A stretch of DNA of 64,000 bases. It comes from Acidobacteriota bacterium. GTDB lineage: Bacteria; Acidobacteriota; Blastocatellia; Chloracidobacteriales; JADJPF01. Positions 54,859 to 61,142 of this stretch are shown here, piece by piece. The notes beneath the pieces are model-generated. The model had not been told where the DNA came from, did no database searches, and worked only from the letters and a program-made list of their open reading frames with translations. Position numbers and translations under genes: made by a program. Positions within the stretch are counted from its first letter, which is position 1. Each line of letters starts with the position of its first letter. The stretch spans positions 62,001 to 126,000 of the forward strand of contig JACQZQ010000109.1 in assembly GCA_016213785.1 (NCBI GenBank). The letters run 5' to 3'.

Positions 54859-55029
54859 TTATAGAAGAGGGTGTAAATCATTTTCTGTATCTGTGAAGAA
54901 AATCCAGTTTATCAGGGTTTTTACTGCTTAGATAACTTATTGATATTGAATTACTTAGTAAGGGGAGCGCGATTTCTGGCTTTCGCCATCATCGCGTTTA
55001 CAGAAAATGATTTACACGCCCTTATAGAA
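54859..55029. mobile_element. 155-bp miniature inverted-repeat element with 8-bp target duplication
   Basis: Imperfect 23-bp terminal inverted repeats (left end GAGG + GTGTAAATC at 54867, right end reading GGGC + GTGTAAATC from 55021, only two mismatches) bound a 155-base element. The inner 19 bp are perfect. TTATAGAA flanks it on both sides (54859-54866 and 55022-55029), a target-site duplication of 8 bases. No open frame lies inside, so it needs a transposase from elsewhere. TIRs of the form GTGTAAATNA and 8-bp duplications are seen in IS256-family elements; that link is inferred. Confidence 0.85.
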
Positions 55030-55035
55030 AATTTT

Positions 55036-56373
55036 CTAGCTTTCATAGGCTGCGGCAATATAGCAACCCCTTGCTGTTGCTGTTAATGGTTCGCTTGCCA
55101 TACGGACTTCAGAAATTTTAATTGGAAAATCATTTTGTCTAAAAATTTTCTCAAATTTCTCTAAAAATCCTTTTGGTTTTGCAGTTCCACCAGAAAGAAC
55201 TATTGGAATCGCTCTATCTAACCTAGGTAAATTACGGCTTTCAGAAATTTCTGTTCTAAGAGTTTCTACTAGAGTTAAGATCATTTCTTCATAATAGATG
55301 TGCATAGCGCTTTCATATTTGTCTTTAGGATTACGAGAAAGATCTAGACTATCCTCTTTAATAACTCTAATTCTAGTAGCAACTTCGCTAGTTACCGCAG
55401 CAACAGCATTATCAATATAATCGCCTGCCTTAGAAATACTAAAAGAAAACACAGGTACAGACATAAAAGCAAAACACACATTACACATACCACCACCACA
55501 GCTAATACCAATACCTGTAAAATTATCTTTTTCCATTTCAGCAAAAACTACTGATAAGCCTTCATTAACACTTTTTGCTCTATAGCCAAGCGCCTCAAGG
55601 AAGTTCTTTAACATCCCTTCATGGTAAACAAGGTTTGCCTCACCACCACGAGGAGCGCCAGGGACAGAAAAACAAAGAATGTCAGGCCCTTTAGTCTTTT
55701 TAACTAAGAGTTCTATAATGGATTGAATAATTTGCCAACCATTTACTTCTGAAGGATTAAGCAAGCCGTTATACATTGGACGACGAGCCTCTACATTAAA
55801 GGAGTTAGCAAACTTTTCTGATTCATTACCAAAAATAAGAATTTCCTTACCGCTCATTTGGTAAGTAATTTTATTTTGGCGCAAAATATTTTCAGTAAAT
55901 TTTGAATAAGGTACAGTAACAAAAGCATTTAACTGTGTTTGTGTCTTAACATTATTAAACTCACCACTAGCTAATACAATCCGGCTAGTTCCAACATCCA
56001 ATCCAAAAAAGTCGGCTTCTTGCCCTGGATTATGACTTTCACTATTGGGCATATCGGTCATGTGTCCTCCAGTAGATTCATTAATATTTTCGATAATAGT
56101 TTCCTTTACCTCTTGAGTACCAGCTATTAACCTAGATAACTTTCCACTAGGGCGAAAGCGTACTAATTGGCGAGGAAGGGTGTTTTTACTTTCTTCTGCT
56201 TGATGAGACAATAACGGACTAGAAAAACTACCAAAATCATGTAGCCTAATACTATCACCTGCCACCAAAGCTTCTGTCCAAGAATTTAGCACTGAGGCTA
56301 AAGCTTTCATAACAAGAGCTTCGCTGAAACCTGTTTTTAGACTTACTTGTTGGATTAGTTCTTTTTTTGTCAT
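55036..56373 (-). CDS. HU/IHF-type DNA-binding domain fused to actin-like ATPase
   Basis: Predicted from ATG at 56373 (445 residues; the frame can start two codons earlier). Residues 1-86 match HU/IHF: TKKELIQQVSLKTGFSE, then IRLHDFGSF and a C-terminal VRFRPSGKLSRLI, but with a short, atypical DNA-arm. After a linker, residues 121-445 form an actin/HSP70-type ATPase: GLDVGTSRI (phosphate 1, Asp126), ISCGGGMCN at 290-298 (phosphate 2, where the usual Asp is Ser) and IVLSGGTAKPKG around 391 (adenosine motif). NEGLSVVFAE resembles MreB/FtsA/ParM connectors. GGAGGA stands 3 bases before a second ATG at 56061, so the actin part might also be made alone. A terminator separates it from the upstream coiled-coil gene on the same strand. 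I know of no named HU-actin family. Confidence 0.75.
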   Translation of the reverse strand: MTKKELIQQVSLKTGFSEALVMKALASVLNSWTEALVAGDSIRLHDFGSFSSPLLSHQAEESKNTLPRQLVRFRPSGKLSRLIAGTQEVKETIIENINESTGGHMTDMPNSESHNPGQEADFFGLDVGTSRIVLASGEFNNVKTQTQLNAFVTVPYSKFTENILRQNKITYQMSGKEILIFGNESEKFANSFNVEARRPMYNGLLNPSEVNGWQIIQSIIELLVKKTKGPDILCFSVPGAPRGGEANLVYHEGMLKNFLEALGYRAKSVNEGLSVVFAEMEKDNFTGIGISCGGGMCNVCFAFMSVPVFSFSISKAGDYIDNAVAAVTSEVATRIRVIKEDSLDLSRNPKDKYESAMHIYYEEMILTLVETLRTEISESRNLPRLDRAIPIVLSGGTAKPKGFLEKFEKIFRQNDFPIKISEVRMASEPLTATARGCYIAAAYES

Positions 56374-56458
56374 CACCAAAGACGATAGCTTAACATAAGT
56401 TTATTAAATTTCTCAATTGTCTATCCAAGAGCAAATTAATTAGAAAAAATCATTACAA

Positions 56459-56496
56459 TAAAAAACAGTCTAACAAAAATACTTTGGTAAGTATTT
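56459..56496 (-). terminator. Intrinsic terminator after the hendecad coiled-coil gene
   Basis: An imperfect hairpin with outer arms CAGTCTA/TAGACTG and an inner AAAATACTT/AAGTATTTT stem, loop TGGT. On the minus strand it is followed by TTTTTTATTG, a proper U-tract. It lies 44 bases past the coiled-coil gene stop and 86 bases before the HU-actin start, implying partly independent transcription. Confidence 0.75.
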
Positions 56497-56540
56497 TAGT
56501 AGACTGCCTTTTATAAACTACCTTAAGCTAAGTAAACATC

Positions 56541-58556
56541 TTAGTTTGCCGTAGCAAATTGGTTTAGGGCTAAAATAATAGATGTCTTTTCTTTTTGAGA
56601 AACTATTTCTATTTCAGATCTTAATGCTTTGAACTGGCTTAATACTTTAGTAATATCCTTTTCTCTATCACTGCTAATGACTTCAGCAATCTTACTTAAT
56701 TTACTAGCAATTTCTTCTACTTTTCTATCTTGAGAAGCGTTTGTAGCATAATTTAGTTCTTTAATTGATCGAACTAAAGAACGTTTCACTAAGTGTAAAT
56801 CTTTGTCATGTTTGCGAAACTTTTCTTCTAATTCAGTCGAAAGCTGCTGTTTTACTTGTGATTGACGCATATAATCAATCATTGCTGCCATTTGTACAAG
56901 TATGCTATCAAAATAACGTAAGACTTCTAAAGAATATTGATCTAATCGGCGTTCTTTTGCTTCTGCTGCTAGGTTTTGTTGGTTAAATTCTTTTTCTTTG
57001 GCGCGATTAGAAGAAGAAAAAACTGTTTCTGTGGCTTTATTAGCAGTAGATAGCTCATTTTCGGCGGCACGATTTTTTTCAGCTAAAGCAGCTTCAGCGG
57101 CACGATTTTTCTCTGATAATAGTTGTTCTGCACCACGATCTTTTTTAGCAAGCTCAGCTTCTGCCTTAGCATTTTCAGCTTTTAATGCAGCCTCAGCCAC
57201 ACGATTAGCCGCAGATAGCGCACTTTCACTTAAAGCATTGGCTTGTTTAAGTGCTTCTTGTTTAGCTTTATCATTAGTAGCTAGTTCTGTTTCTTCTATA
57301 GAATTATTAAATTTTAATTGCTCTTCAGCAGCACTATCTAGCTCAATTTCTGCGGCTTCAGCTTGTTTATTTGCAGAAACTAAAGCTATTTCATTATCTA
57401 AATTAATTTGGCGAAATTCTGATTCTGATTTAGTGTCACAAGCTAAGCTAGCCTCTTCTGATGCTCGATTAGAAGCAGCAAATTGAGTTTCTTCTTTCTG
57501 ATGTTGAGCTACTAGTAAAGCACGTTTTTCTGGATCTGTTTCTGCTTCTTCTAAAGCGCGATTACAGCTTGCAAGCTCTATTTCAGCAGCACGATTTTCT
57601 GCACTTTGAGCCTCTCTAGCTGCTTGATTTGTCTTTACTAAATCAGCTTCAGCCTTTCGATTAGTACTAGATAATATAGACTCTTCTAAACGATTCTCTT
57701 TAGCATGAGCGCTTTCTTTTGCTAAATTAGCGGCTTTTAATGTACTTTCATCTGCATCATGACGAGCTTTCATAGCATCTTCTTTTGCTATATCTGCCAT
57801 CATTTCTGCTTCTTCAGAAGCACGATTGCGTATGGCTAAATCGCTTTCTGCTTTAAGATTTGAACTTAAAAAGCTTTCTTCCTCTGTTTTATGTTGTGTT
57901 AATAAAGCAGCTTCTTTCTTTAAGTTTTCTGTATGCAAAAGATCTGCTGCTGCTGAGTTAGTCTTACGTAATTCTGCTTCAGCAGTACGATTTGCTGTTG
58001 CAAAAGCGGCTTCTTCTTTTTGATGTTGAGTAACTAAAGCGGCTTCGGCGGCTTGGTGTCCTAGTGCTAGATTTCTTTCTGCTTCACGGTTTCTAGCAGC
58101 ATGTTCTGCTTCTTTTTCTAAATTAGCCTTTAAGAGTCGGGTTTCATTAGCATAATTTGCACTAGCTTGAATACTAGCACTAGTAAAAACAACATTTGCT
58201 ATTGGTTGCTCGCTAACTTGTTCATTGCCATCTTCAATAACAGTATGTCCGCCTGTGTCAGAAATAAGCTGATTTTTCACTAAATCAGCAAAAATAGTAT
58301 GCTCTCCTGTACTAGTATTTGGAGAAATAGATTTTTTTAGGGTTTCTTCGGGGCTAATTTCTTTAGATTCAACTTCTTTAGATTCAACTTCTTTGGAAGG
58401 GCTTTCAGAAATATTTTTAGATAAGGCTTCTTCAATATTTTCTCTTTGGAATCTTCGCTTATGACTTAAGCGTGTTTCTGTTAAACTTTGAGTAATATCA
58501 ATATTATCTAAGTTATGTAAGTTAAAGTGAAAACCTTTATCTTTAATCTCTGACAT
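56541..58556 (-). CDS. Long hendecad-repeat coiled-coil protein
   Basis: A 671-residue protein without signal peptide or membrane helix. GGGAGG stands 9 bases before the ATG. Residues 1-130 are charged and probably disordered, with KEVESKEVESKE from a 15-base repeat. Residues 130-535 are about 37 repeats of eleven residues with an xxNRAAExxLx consensus (for example EKNRAAEAALA, EKNRAAENELS, TANKATETVFS). Eleven-residue periodicity makes an almost straight or slightly right-handed coiled coil, different from ordinary heptad coils. The last 135 residues (RLDQYSLEVLRYFDSILVQM ...) form another helical domain. The gene lies upstream of the HU-actin gene on the same strand. A structural filament or spacer is likely, but no family was recognised. 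Confidence 0.7.
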   Translation of the reverse strand: MSEIKDKGFHFNLHNLDNIDITQSLTETRLSHKRRFQRENIEEALSKNISESPSKEVESKEVESKEISPEETLKKSISPNTSTGEHTIFADLVKNQLISDTGGHTVIEDGNEQVSEQPIANVVFTSASIQASANYANETRLLKANLEKEAEHAARNREAERNLALGHQAAEAALVTQHQKEEAAFATANRTAEAELRKTNSAAADLLHTENLKKEAALLTQHKTEEESFLSSNLKAESDLAIRNRASEEAEMMADIAKEDAMKARHDADESTLKAANLAKESAHAKENRLEESILSSTNRKAEADLVKTNQAAREAQSAENRAAEIELASCNRALEEAETDPEKRALLVAQHQKEETQFAASNRASEEASLACDTKSESEFRQINLDNEIALVSANKQAEAAEIELDSAAEEQLKFNNSIEETELATNDKAKQEALKQANALSESALSAANRVAEAALKAENAKAEAELAKKDRGAEQLLSEKNRAAEAALAEKNRAAENELSTANKATETVFSSSNRAKEKEFNQQNLAAEAKERRLDQYSLEVLRYFDSILVQMAAMIDYMRQSQVKQQLSTELEEKFRKHDKDLHLVKRSLVRSIKELNYATNASQDRKVEEIASKLSKIAEVISSDREKDITKVLSQFKALRSEIEIVSQKEKTSIILALNQFATAN
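58359..58388 (-). repeat. Two 15-bp tandem repeats in the coiled-coil gene
   Basis: TTCTTTAGATTCAAC is present twice in a row (plus-strand wording), encoding Glu-Val-Glu-Ser-Lys twice in the N-terminal tail. Unit length is a multiple of three. Confidence 0.85.
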
Positions 58557-58833
58557 CTTTTCTGCCTCCCAAGCAAGTTTGCTGCAAAAAATTAAGACCT
58601 AATTATTAAAAAGTTGTTAAGGATCTAAACTCATTATCGGGTTAGACCCTGATGTGTTGCTAAATCTCCTTTTTTTCACTAGGAAAATTTTTCTCAGTAG
58701 GAAAAATATACCTAGTGAAAAATTAAAGATCGGGTATTTTTTACATAGTAGGTGGTTTGTACTAGTACTTTAGTTTTTTTAACATCTTACTTTGATTTTT
58801 GCATTAAAATGCTAAAGCTAATAAAAAGTTAAA
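58557..58833. other. Leader region with large palindrome before the coiled-coil gene
   Basis: The upstream region of the minus-strand coiled-coil gene. It contains the inverted repeat TTTTTCACTAGG (58672-58683) and CCTAGTGAAAAA (58711-58722), with a second inner stem ATTTTTC/GAAAAAT. Because the T-tract precedes and the A-tract follows the stem, it does not fit a terminator; it may bind a protein or fold in the leader RNA. Apart from this I see no gene. Confidence 0.5.
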
Positions 58834-59029
58834 GATAGAAAAAGTTTAGACTTTTGGGGGAAACTTTGTCCAGAGTGGCACAATGGTTGCTCTAGGGATA
58901 GGTGGGGCAAGAGATAATTAGCGGCAGAAATGTCGCTATGGTCTCTAGCGATTATAGTGGTGAGGACTGTAATCGCAATTAGTTTAGCGCTGTAGTTATC
59001 TCCCACAACTACAGCGCTGATTTTTTTTA
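58834..59029 (+). ncRNA. Candidate structured small RNA with intrinsic terminator
   Basis: A plus-strand transcript unit of about 195 bases with no protein. It has four hairpins in order: AGAGT...GCTCT near 58872; a hairpin closed by AGAGA/TCTCT with inner 8-bp TAGCGGCA/TGTCGCTA stem and a GAAA (GNRA) tetraloop at 58927-58930; GCGATTA/TAATCGC at 58948-58976; and a final 12-bp perfect stem followed by eight T. The region is clearly richer in G and C than flanking DNA. A weak promoter (TTGCAT at 58799, TAAAAA at 58822) precedes it. The closest plus-strand gene ends kilobases upstream, so the terminator is otherwise unexplained. Function and class are unknown; 5' end is approximate. Confidence 0.55.
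58986..59028 (+). terminator. Strong intrinsic terminator of the candidate RNA
   Basis: Arms AGCGCTGTAGTT (58986-58997) and AACTACAGCGCT (59007-59018) form 12 perfect base pairs with a 9-base loop. GATTTTTTTT follows directly. The U-tract is only on the plus strand. Confidence 0.9.
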
Positions 59030-59114
59030 AAGGCAAAATTTTTAAACCAAGCATTGATTTTCAATTAAACTCTCTTCTTTTTTCAATTAAATCCTTCAAA
59101 TTTCTTCAAATTTC

Positions 59115-59876
59115 TTACCATCCTTTAGGTAATCTTACAACATTCATACGTTTAGCAATTATATTTTGGCGACGAGCTACTTTTTTAGGGTTTTTTGTTG
59201 GATTATAAACAGTACGTGGATTAGGTATCATTGCAGCTAAATAAGCGGCTTCGCTTGAAGAAAGCTCAGAAACAGACTTATTAAAATACTTCCTTGAAGC
59301 TGCTTCAGCACCAAAAACCCCATCACCCCATTCAATAACATTTAAGTAAATTTCCAATATTCGTTTTTTACCTAGATTTTTTTCTAAATAATAAGTTATC
59401 GCGGCTTCTTTAACTTTACGTATAGGATTTTTTGATTCTGAAAGATAAAGGTTTTTAGCAAGTTGTTGTGAGATAGTTGAGGCGCCTCTTACAAACCTGC
59501 CTTCTTCCCAATCTTTTTCAACAGCTTTTTTAAGCTCTTCTGTATCAAAACCATTATGTTGAAAAAACCTTGAATCCTCGCCAGCTAAAACAGCCTTTAC
59601 TAGATTTTTAGAGATTTGATTAATTGGTTGCCAGTTTTGTTTTATTTCAAGAGTTCTAGCTTGACTAACAGCCTCTTTTTTACGTGCTTCAATCATAGCA
59701 GTACTAGTAGGATTACCAGCCTTAAGCTCTTTTCCTGTAGGTAAAAATAAAAACTCTAAGCCTATATAACCAAAGACTGCTAAAAATAAGATTAAGAAAA
59801 TCCGCTTAAACGACCAAGATCTAGCATTTTCTTGTTTACGAACCTTAGTAGAAGCATTAACCTTTTTACTTGGCAT
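59115..59876 (-). CDS. mtgA: Monofunctional peptidoglycan glycosyltransferase
   Basis: A 253-residue GT51 enzyme. One N-terminal transmembrane helix (residues 26-45) follows a basic cytoplasmic tail. VLAGEDSRFFQHNGFD holds catalytic Glu100, then RGASTISQQLAKNLYLSESK, RKVKEAAITYYLEKNLGKKR and EIYLNVIEWGDGVFGAEAAS, all GT51 signatures. It polymerises lipid II glycan strands at the periplasmic face and lacks a transpeptidase domain. It is convergent with the candidate small RNA and divergent from the binding-protein gene to its right. Confidence 0.92.
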   Translation of the reverse strand: MPSKKVNASTKVRKQENARSWSFKRIFLILFLAVFGYIGLEFLFLPTGKELKAGNPTSTAMIEARKKEAVSQARTLEIKQNWQPINQISKNLVKAVLAGEDSRFFQHNGFDTEELKKAVEKDWEEGRFVRGASTISQQLAKNLYLSESKNPIRKVKEAAITYYLEKNLGKKRILEIYLNVIEWGDGVFGAEAASRKYFNKSVSELSSSEAAYLAAMIPNPRTVYNPTKNPKKVARRQNIIAKRMNVVRLPKGW

Positions 59877-59945
59877 TGGGATAAAATCTCTTTTTTAACT
59901 TAAAATCTAAATTTATAACTTTCAATATTAAATCTAGGGATTAGC

Positions 59946-61142
59946 ATGAAACAACCTCTTCTACTCAAAACTTTACTAATCATTTTGTTAGTGGCTATTT
60001 TTTCTATTTCTTGTGAGAAAAAATCTAGCCAGCCAGAAACCACCCAAAAATCTACCTCTGATAAAATCAAAATAGGTGTCTACTATCCATTAACAGGCGA
60101 TATAGCAACTTTTGGTCAATTTGGCAAAAAGGGTGTAGAAATGGCTGTAGCCGAAGTTAATGCCCAAGGTGGTCTACTTGGTCGTCAAATAGAAGCAATT
60201 TATGAAGATACTCGTGGACAACAACAGGATTCAACTATTGCAGTGCAAAAGCTAATTGATAAAGATAAAGTGGTTGCCGTACTTGGTGAATCTGCATCAA
60301 CTAATTCTTTAGCAGGTGGCGCGGTTTGTCAGGAAAAGAAAATCCCTATGATTACACCATCCTCAACAAACCCAACAGTAACACAGATAGGAGATTATAT
60401 TTTCCGTATTTGTTTTCTAGATGATTTTCAAGGTGAAGTTATGGCTAGATTTGCTGTTAATACTCTAAAAGCTAAAAGAGTTGCAGTATTATATGATAAT
60501 GGTAGTGACTATAGTATTGGATTAGATGAATTTTTTAGCGCTACACTTAAGAAATTAGGTGGTGAAATTGTCGCTAAAGAAGCTTACCAAAAAGCAGACG
60601 TTGATTTTAGCGCTCAATTGACTAAGATTAAAGGCTCAAAACCTGATGCTATCTATGTTCCAGGCTACTATACTCAAGTTGGTCAAATCGCTCAGCAGAC
60701 TCGCAAACTTGGTATGACAATACCTATTCTTGGTGCTGATGGTTGGGATTCGCCATCACTAATTGAAATAGGTAAAGAAGCCCTTAATGGTTGCTATTTT
60801 TCTAATCATTATAATGTTGAAGATCCTGATCCAAGAGTAAGCAAATTTGTAGGAGAGTTTAAGACAAAATATAACTCAACTCCTGATACCACAGCAGGTC
60901 TAGCTTATGATGCGACTTATATTTTATTTGCAGCAATAAAAAAAGCTAATTCTACTGAAAGTAAAGCTATTCGCGATGCTATTAGTGAGACTAAAAATTA
61001 CCCTGGAATAACAGGAGACATTAGCATTAGCAAAGAGCGCAATGCTATAAAATCAGCAGTAATTGTAGGGATTGAAAAGGGCAGATATGTTGTTAAAGAA
61101 AAAATGTCTCCTATTGATCAAAACGTTGCAGAAAATAAATAA
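59946..61142 (+). CDS. livJ: Branched-chain amino-acid binding lipoprotein (first copy)
   Basis: A 398-residue type I periplasmic binding protein. The signal ends at Cys23 (FSISC), lipidated. IKIGVYYPLTGDIATFGQFG and GGLLGRQIEAIYEDTRG start the LivJ/LivK-type fold, followed by VLGESASTNSLAGGAVC and PGYYTQVGQIAQQTRKLG. It binds leucine, isoleucine, valine or a related amino acid or amide for the LivHMGF-type importer. A second, clearly related copy follows after 217 bases. Confidence 0.85.
   Translation: MKQPLLLKTLLIILLVAIFSISCEKKSSQPETTQKSTSDKIKIGVYYPLTGDIATFGQFGKKGVEMAVAEVNAQGGLLGRQIEAIYEDTRGQQQDSTIAVQKLIDKDKVVAVLGESASTNSLAGGAVCQEKKIPMITPSSTNPTVTQIGDYIFRICFLDDFQGEVMARFAVNTLKAKRVAVLYDNGSDYSIGLDEFFSATLKKLGGEIVAKEAYQKADVDFSAQLTKIKGSKPDAIYVPGYYTQVGQIAQQTRKLGMTIPILGADGWDSPSLIEIGKEALNGCYFSNHYNVEDPDPRVSKFVGEFKTKYNSTPDTTAGLAYDATYILFAAIKKANSTESKAIRDAISETKNYPGITGDISISKERNAIKSAVIVGIEKGRYVVKEKMSPIDQNVAENK

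Follow-up and report, generated by a model that had tools for sequence, protein, structure and literature searches.

Eleven-residue amphipathic helix repeats are found in LEA group 3 proteins, apolipoproteins and synuclein, whilst the rods of crescentin and of the cyanobacterial filament proteins are mainly heptad. Closest in kind to the protein described here are FilP and Scy of Streptomyces: the coiled-coil rod of Scy exceeds 1000 residues and consists almost entirely of eleven-residue units (hendecads), and the two proteins show that hendecad dimers require small core residues, above all alanine (PMC9858780). The surface stalks tetrabrachion and NadA3 are hendecad/undecad coiled coils that form nearly straight rods, a description covered in part by PMC6191539 and in part general knowledge.

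In a window of 64,000 nucleotides (the whole stretch of DNA analysed), which belongs to a 6.4 Mb Acidobacteriota genome, a gene at 56541..58556 on the minus strand encodes a 671-aa hendecad rod protein, P0001. A ribosome site rated good, GGGAGG at 58565-58570, precedes the ATG by 8 nt, and because another genome (G003) carries an open frame for a full-length homolog, we regard the ORF as a real gene. On the plus strand, a shadow ORF (56998..57486) lies opposite it. P0001 is unrelated by sequence to known hendecad rods, yet it is of the same kind as FilP and Scy, sharing with them a long alanine-rich hendecad rod, probably a coiled coil, in a bacterial cytoplasmic protein (35 hendecads, with alanine forming 22-28% of the rod). 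It differs from them in having neither a DivIVA-like N-terminal domain (Pfam, E up to 1) nor the GYDxxEVD motif, in its single conserved central break, its one leucine per hendecad and its N/H/D at position e, and in being of a type found only in a Blastocatellia family. The earlier note had considered bacterial proteins of this length and regularity to be rare, which was an overstatement given that the Scy rod of >1000 residues was already known (PMC9858780). The likeness to crescentin and the cyanobacterial filament proteins lies in a flexible head, a long helical rod, a tail and a proposed scaffold role; no sequence relation to them was found, and polymerisation of P0001 is only putative. 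In P0001, unlike in tetrabrachion and NadA3, we could see neither a signal sequence nor a membrane anchor nor an adhesin head, and the protein is set apart from LEA group 3 proteins, apolipoproteins and synuclein by the lack of a family match, a fixed repeat number and a weak hydrophobic moment.

Comparison of P0001 with itself gave an identity of 0.277 at lag 11 against ∼0.10 at other lags, with values of 0.25-0.28 recurring at lags 11, 22, 33 and 44, and a cyclic register fit scored 219, compared with a mean of 45 and a maximum of 61 for shuffled sequences. The eleven-residue period proposed in the earlier note is thus borne out, and its estimate of about 37 repeats is fair: there are 35 full hendecads, 18 before the break and 17 after it, plus degenerate units at both ends. 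The consensus is L-x-x-x-[NHD]-R-A-A-E-x-x, with Leu or Phe at position 1, Asn, His or Asp at 5, Arg at 6, Ala at 7 and 8 and Glu at 9, and there is almost no glycine or proline within the repeats. Hydrophobic residues recur most strongly at periods of 11 and 5.5, and because both outweigh the 3.667 harmonic, the amphipathic stripe of P0001 is a weak one; each hendecad carries about one large hydrophobic residue plus alanines. Of the two halves of P0001, only the second has a significant 3.667 harmonic (p 0.004-0.026, against p 0.08-0.14 in the first); in the homolog, the harmonic for large hydrophobic residues reaches significance in either half. The amphipathic signal expected near 3.67 residues is therefore modest and limited to some halves, but with power at the heptad period of 3.5 residues at noise level, neither a heptad array nor an array devoid of amphipathic period describes this protein. 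The hydrophobic moment is low (mean 0.085-0.127; mean 0.17 in 18-residue windows). With position 1 taken as a, core position a is Leu or Phe, d and h are alanine-rich and e is mostly Asn, and the most hydrophobic core register takes in L1, A4, A8 and A11. By analogy, this composition would fit the alanine-core scheme of hendecad dimers. Over the repeats, the charges sum to a net value of about -25 in P0001 and -8 in the homolog.

The hendecads are arranged in two arms, the first comprising 18 complete units at residues 141-338 (57543..58136, minus strand) and the second 17 complete units at residues 348-534 (56955..57515, minus strand). Between them lies a nine-residue unit, ETDPEKRAL (residues 339-347; 57516..57542, minus strand), which is the only register shift between residues 121 and 575. 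This break is the best conserved stretch of the protein, with EEAE-x-DPEKRA invariant between both homologs. AlphaFold, given a two-sequence alignment (mean pLDDT 63.8, pTM 0.20; uninformative on arm packing), predicts a helix of 213 residues at 126-338 (pLDDT mostly 70-86) and one of 227 residues at 342-568 (∼52-78), with a helix break at 339-341. Taken together, the conserved unit and the predicted helix break indicate a hinged rod of two arms, not one. The idea of one long straight coil, put forward in the earlier note, which overlooked this break, consequently lacks support, as the DP-containing break splits the array into two nearly equal halves; the proposed length of tens of nanometres stands, since at the established helix rise of 0.15 nm per residue the predicted helices would measure ∼32 and ∼34 nm. 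P0001 might accordingly be extended over 66 nm, bend at the hinge or double back on itself as a hairpin.

Either side of the rod the protein is less regular. The N-terminal segment (residues 1-125; 58182..58556, minus strand) is mostly of low confidence and predicted to be disordered, as judged from AlphaFold (pLDDT <50 at residues 1-21 and 50-125, with a predicted helix at 21-49) and the sequence, and no signal peptide or membrane segment was seen in it by eye. Inside this disordered segment lies the short motif TGEhtIfaDl (residues 83-92; 58281..58310, minus strand), which is identical or similar in both homologs, coincides with a short predicted helix at 87-95 and is a candidate binding motif. 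The C-terminal helical region (residues 535-671; 56544..56954, minus strand), delineated by the alignment and by low-confidence AlphaFold helices, contains an IDxMRxS motif at residue 560 that is conserved in the two-homolog alignment.

The sole homolog that we found is encoded by one other member of the family, the Blastocatellia MAG SKYG65 (G003), and is full-length and 35-36% identical. The spacing of conserved anchors is equal in the two proteins: SASxQA and DPEKRA lie 215 residues apart, DPEKRA and IDxMR 219; such identical spacings despite the low sequence identity suggest, for n=2 sequences, that rod length and hinge are under selection. Repeats also match their positional counterparts (4.37 of 11) better than units at other offsets (3.03-3.53), which points to an old hendecad array that was not reshuffled and, again from two sequences, would make it stable in copy number. 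Recent tandem expansion was considered and ruled out, there being no tandem repeat left at the DNA level.

A sequence search of 162 class genomes returned no homolog beyond that in G003, and a profile search of 158 class and 396 phylum genomes no credible one; two marginal profile matches (E 1e-3 and 3.5e-4) were to short coil stretches and were judged to be chance. The GTDB contig collection contained a single matching locus, that of the G003 relative, and there was no match to the rod protein among phages, plasmids, viral contigs, PDB sequences, Pfam, NCBIfam or PHROGs. Because repetitive proteins can slip through the first pass of the genome search, these results do not amount to proof of absence elsewhere. 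A search at E 0.1 with the C-terminal 113 residues, one of which near the start was changed from I to Y, missed even the G003 homolog and is informative for close relatives only; it found none in G001, the sister species.

Upstream of the rod gene lies mtgA, for a monofunctional biosynthetic peptidoglycan transglycosylase (59115..59876, minus strand; TIGR02070, E 2.5e-73, above cut-off), an arrangement present in both of the two genomes with a rod gene and in the same order on G003 contig C20. The downstream neighbour in the window is an HU-volactin frame (55036..56379, minus strand; PF25216 Volactin, E 8.8e-76, and PF00216, E 5.8e-11), beyond which come a ccsB-like gene and then hemA. In G003, the HU-volactin gene likewise precedes a ccsB-like gene and hemA, but on contig C8, separate from the rod gene on C20. 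In G001, mtgA adjoins HU-volactin and the rod gene is absent: on aligning 54900-60100 to G001 contig C352 by blastn, the interval 56425..58598 had no detectable similarity, and its flanks were kept 55 bases apart (L042 4157-4211), with stricter settings placing the right edge near 58698. Within a single genus, the rod gene is present in one species and missing from its sister. G001 is a fragmented assembly of 840 contigs, and misassembly might in principle account for the empty site, though the flanks are contiguous. On an economical reading of the gene orders, the rod gene would have been linked to mtgA in the ancestor of the family and lost in G001. Also upstream of the rod gene, at 58661-58733, is an AT-rich inverted repeat, TTTTTCACTAGG...CCTAGTGAAAAA, which is partly kept in G001; matches of miRNA models to it were chance only.

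Volactin, a shape protein of haloarchaea, has bacterial counterparts (PF25216; 55036-56061 of the window, minus strand) in 23 of 58 sampled relatives from the class, a count that leaves out two of 25 search matches because they were to the HU part only. The best Foldseek matches of the actin-fold part are MamK and MreB. Between the HU and actin domains we observed an in-frame ribosome site and start, GGAGG-N4-ATG (56070..56059, minus strand; also L004-L008, L010-L012, L016 and L026), the spacing of which is kept in 10 of the 12 genomes with an in-frame HU fusion (the window's own included), and volactin genes without HU mostly begin with the same element. Its conservation suggests that two products, fused HU-volactin and free volactin, may be made from one frame.

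Between mtgA and the rod gene there is, in addition, a structured RNA candidate of ∼150 nt, comprising hairpins and a terminator (58876-59028, plus strand), other copies of which are L059 and L061-L078. It starts with TGGCAC-N5-TTGC, a sigma54-type -24/-12 match that is the only perfect one in the window (0.11 expected), and ends with a hairpin and a T run; TGGCAY-N5-TTGC stands at the 5' end of nearly all 20 copies. Helix 1 and the putative -12 element overlap in the model, so the start of the putative transcript is uncertain. A covariance model built from five copies matched 89 of 158 class genomes at E <=0.01, with 1-5 copies in each. Covariation is strong: among the 20 aligned copies, double-sided changes were seen at 29 of 44 pairs (97 cells vs 30.5 in shuffles), and in slid versions the paired fraction dropped from 88% to 34-53%. 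Being fitted to the model, this alignment is biased in its favour; the same covariation pattern is seen in the MAFFT alignment of five sequences that supplied the structure. The conserved parts are GGGGCAA-GAGA, the loop GGTGAGGA and the C-rich terminator loop TCCCAC. Rfam at gathering scores gave no match in ten copies, and its matches to the window were at chance level only. From these comparisons, the candidate is apparently a new structured RNA family, and it is probably more novel than the hendecad rod.

As to the function of P0001, we favour a cytoplasmic rod protein that probably serves as a fixed-length, hinged spacer or scaffold. Leucine at a and the alanine-rich d and h positions would allow two or more chains to pack into a nearly untwisted coiled coil, the simplest assembly being an alanine-rich dimer like that reported for FilP and Scy. 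Partners, or further copies of the rod, would thereby be kept a set distance apart by its two ends, and the break would let the two arms bend or fold back. A role at the envelope or in cell shape would be a first guess from the position beside mtgA, which is a weak step; the link to mtgA is seen in two genomes only. It is conceivable, if doubtful, that the protein is a lineage-specific ruler, whose two fixed-length arms and hinge set ∼33 or 66 nm between cell components; if so, selection would preserve its length even as most of its surface changed in sequence. The arms might instead fold back at the DPEKRA break into an antiparallel hairpin of ∼33 nm, in the manner of SMC-like arms. Although the break lies near the middle, between helices of 213 and 227 residues, and is the best conserved sequence, Pfam found neither an ATPase nor a head domain at either end, and we regard such a hairpin, with its putative arm-to-arm contacts, as unlikely.

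Other readings dispense with the coiled coil or assign the rod a partner. The eleven-residue repeats, high alanine content, charge, polarity and near absence of glycine and proline from the repeats are also what would be expected of an LEA-type desiccation or stress protectant, disordered in solution and helical on drying; yet no LEA family was matched in Pfam at E up to 1, the helix prediction carries fair confidence, and the exact conservation of the repeat number and of one break suggests a role that depends on length, making a protectant quite improbable. A repeat of eleven residues bearing one narrow hydrophobic stripe would also suit a lipid- or membrane-binding amphipathic helix of the apolipoprotein, synuclein or perilipin class, a comparison drawn partly from knowledge of these families. 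The low moment (0.17) and the net charge (about -25, and -8 in the homolog) are, partly on general knowledge, atypical of that class, none of whose families was matched in Pfam at E up to 1, and we consider a lipid-binding helix very improbable. Finally, the earlier note had drawn attention to the neighbouring DNA-binding actin, and the rod could work with HU-volactin in a DNA-linked cytoskeleton. The two genes are adjacent and on the same strand in the window, but they are unlinked in G003, the sister species keeps HU-volactin without the rod, and volactin occurs in 23 of 58 relatives where the rod occurs in only two. Such a partnership is hardly credible, and the actin-like gene appears to be an accidental neighbour.

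The presence of the rod gene in two genomes only, together with its absence from the sister species, indicates that it is dispensable, and its effect would accordingly be local to the lineage. There are few regular hendecad arrays, and FilP and Scy of Streptomyces, together with surface stalks, account for much of the present knowledge about them; P0001 provides a clean test case for the assembly of marginal hendecad cores and for selection on rod length.
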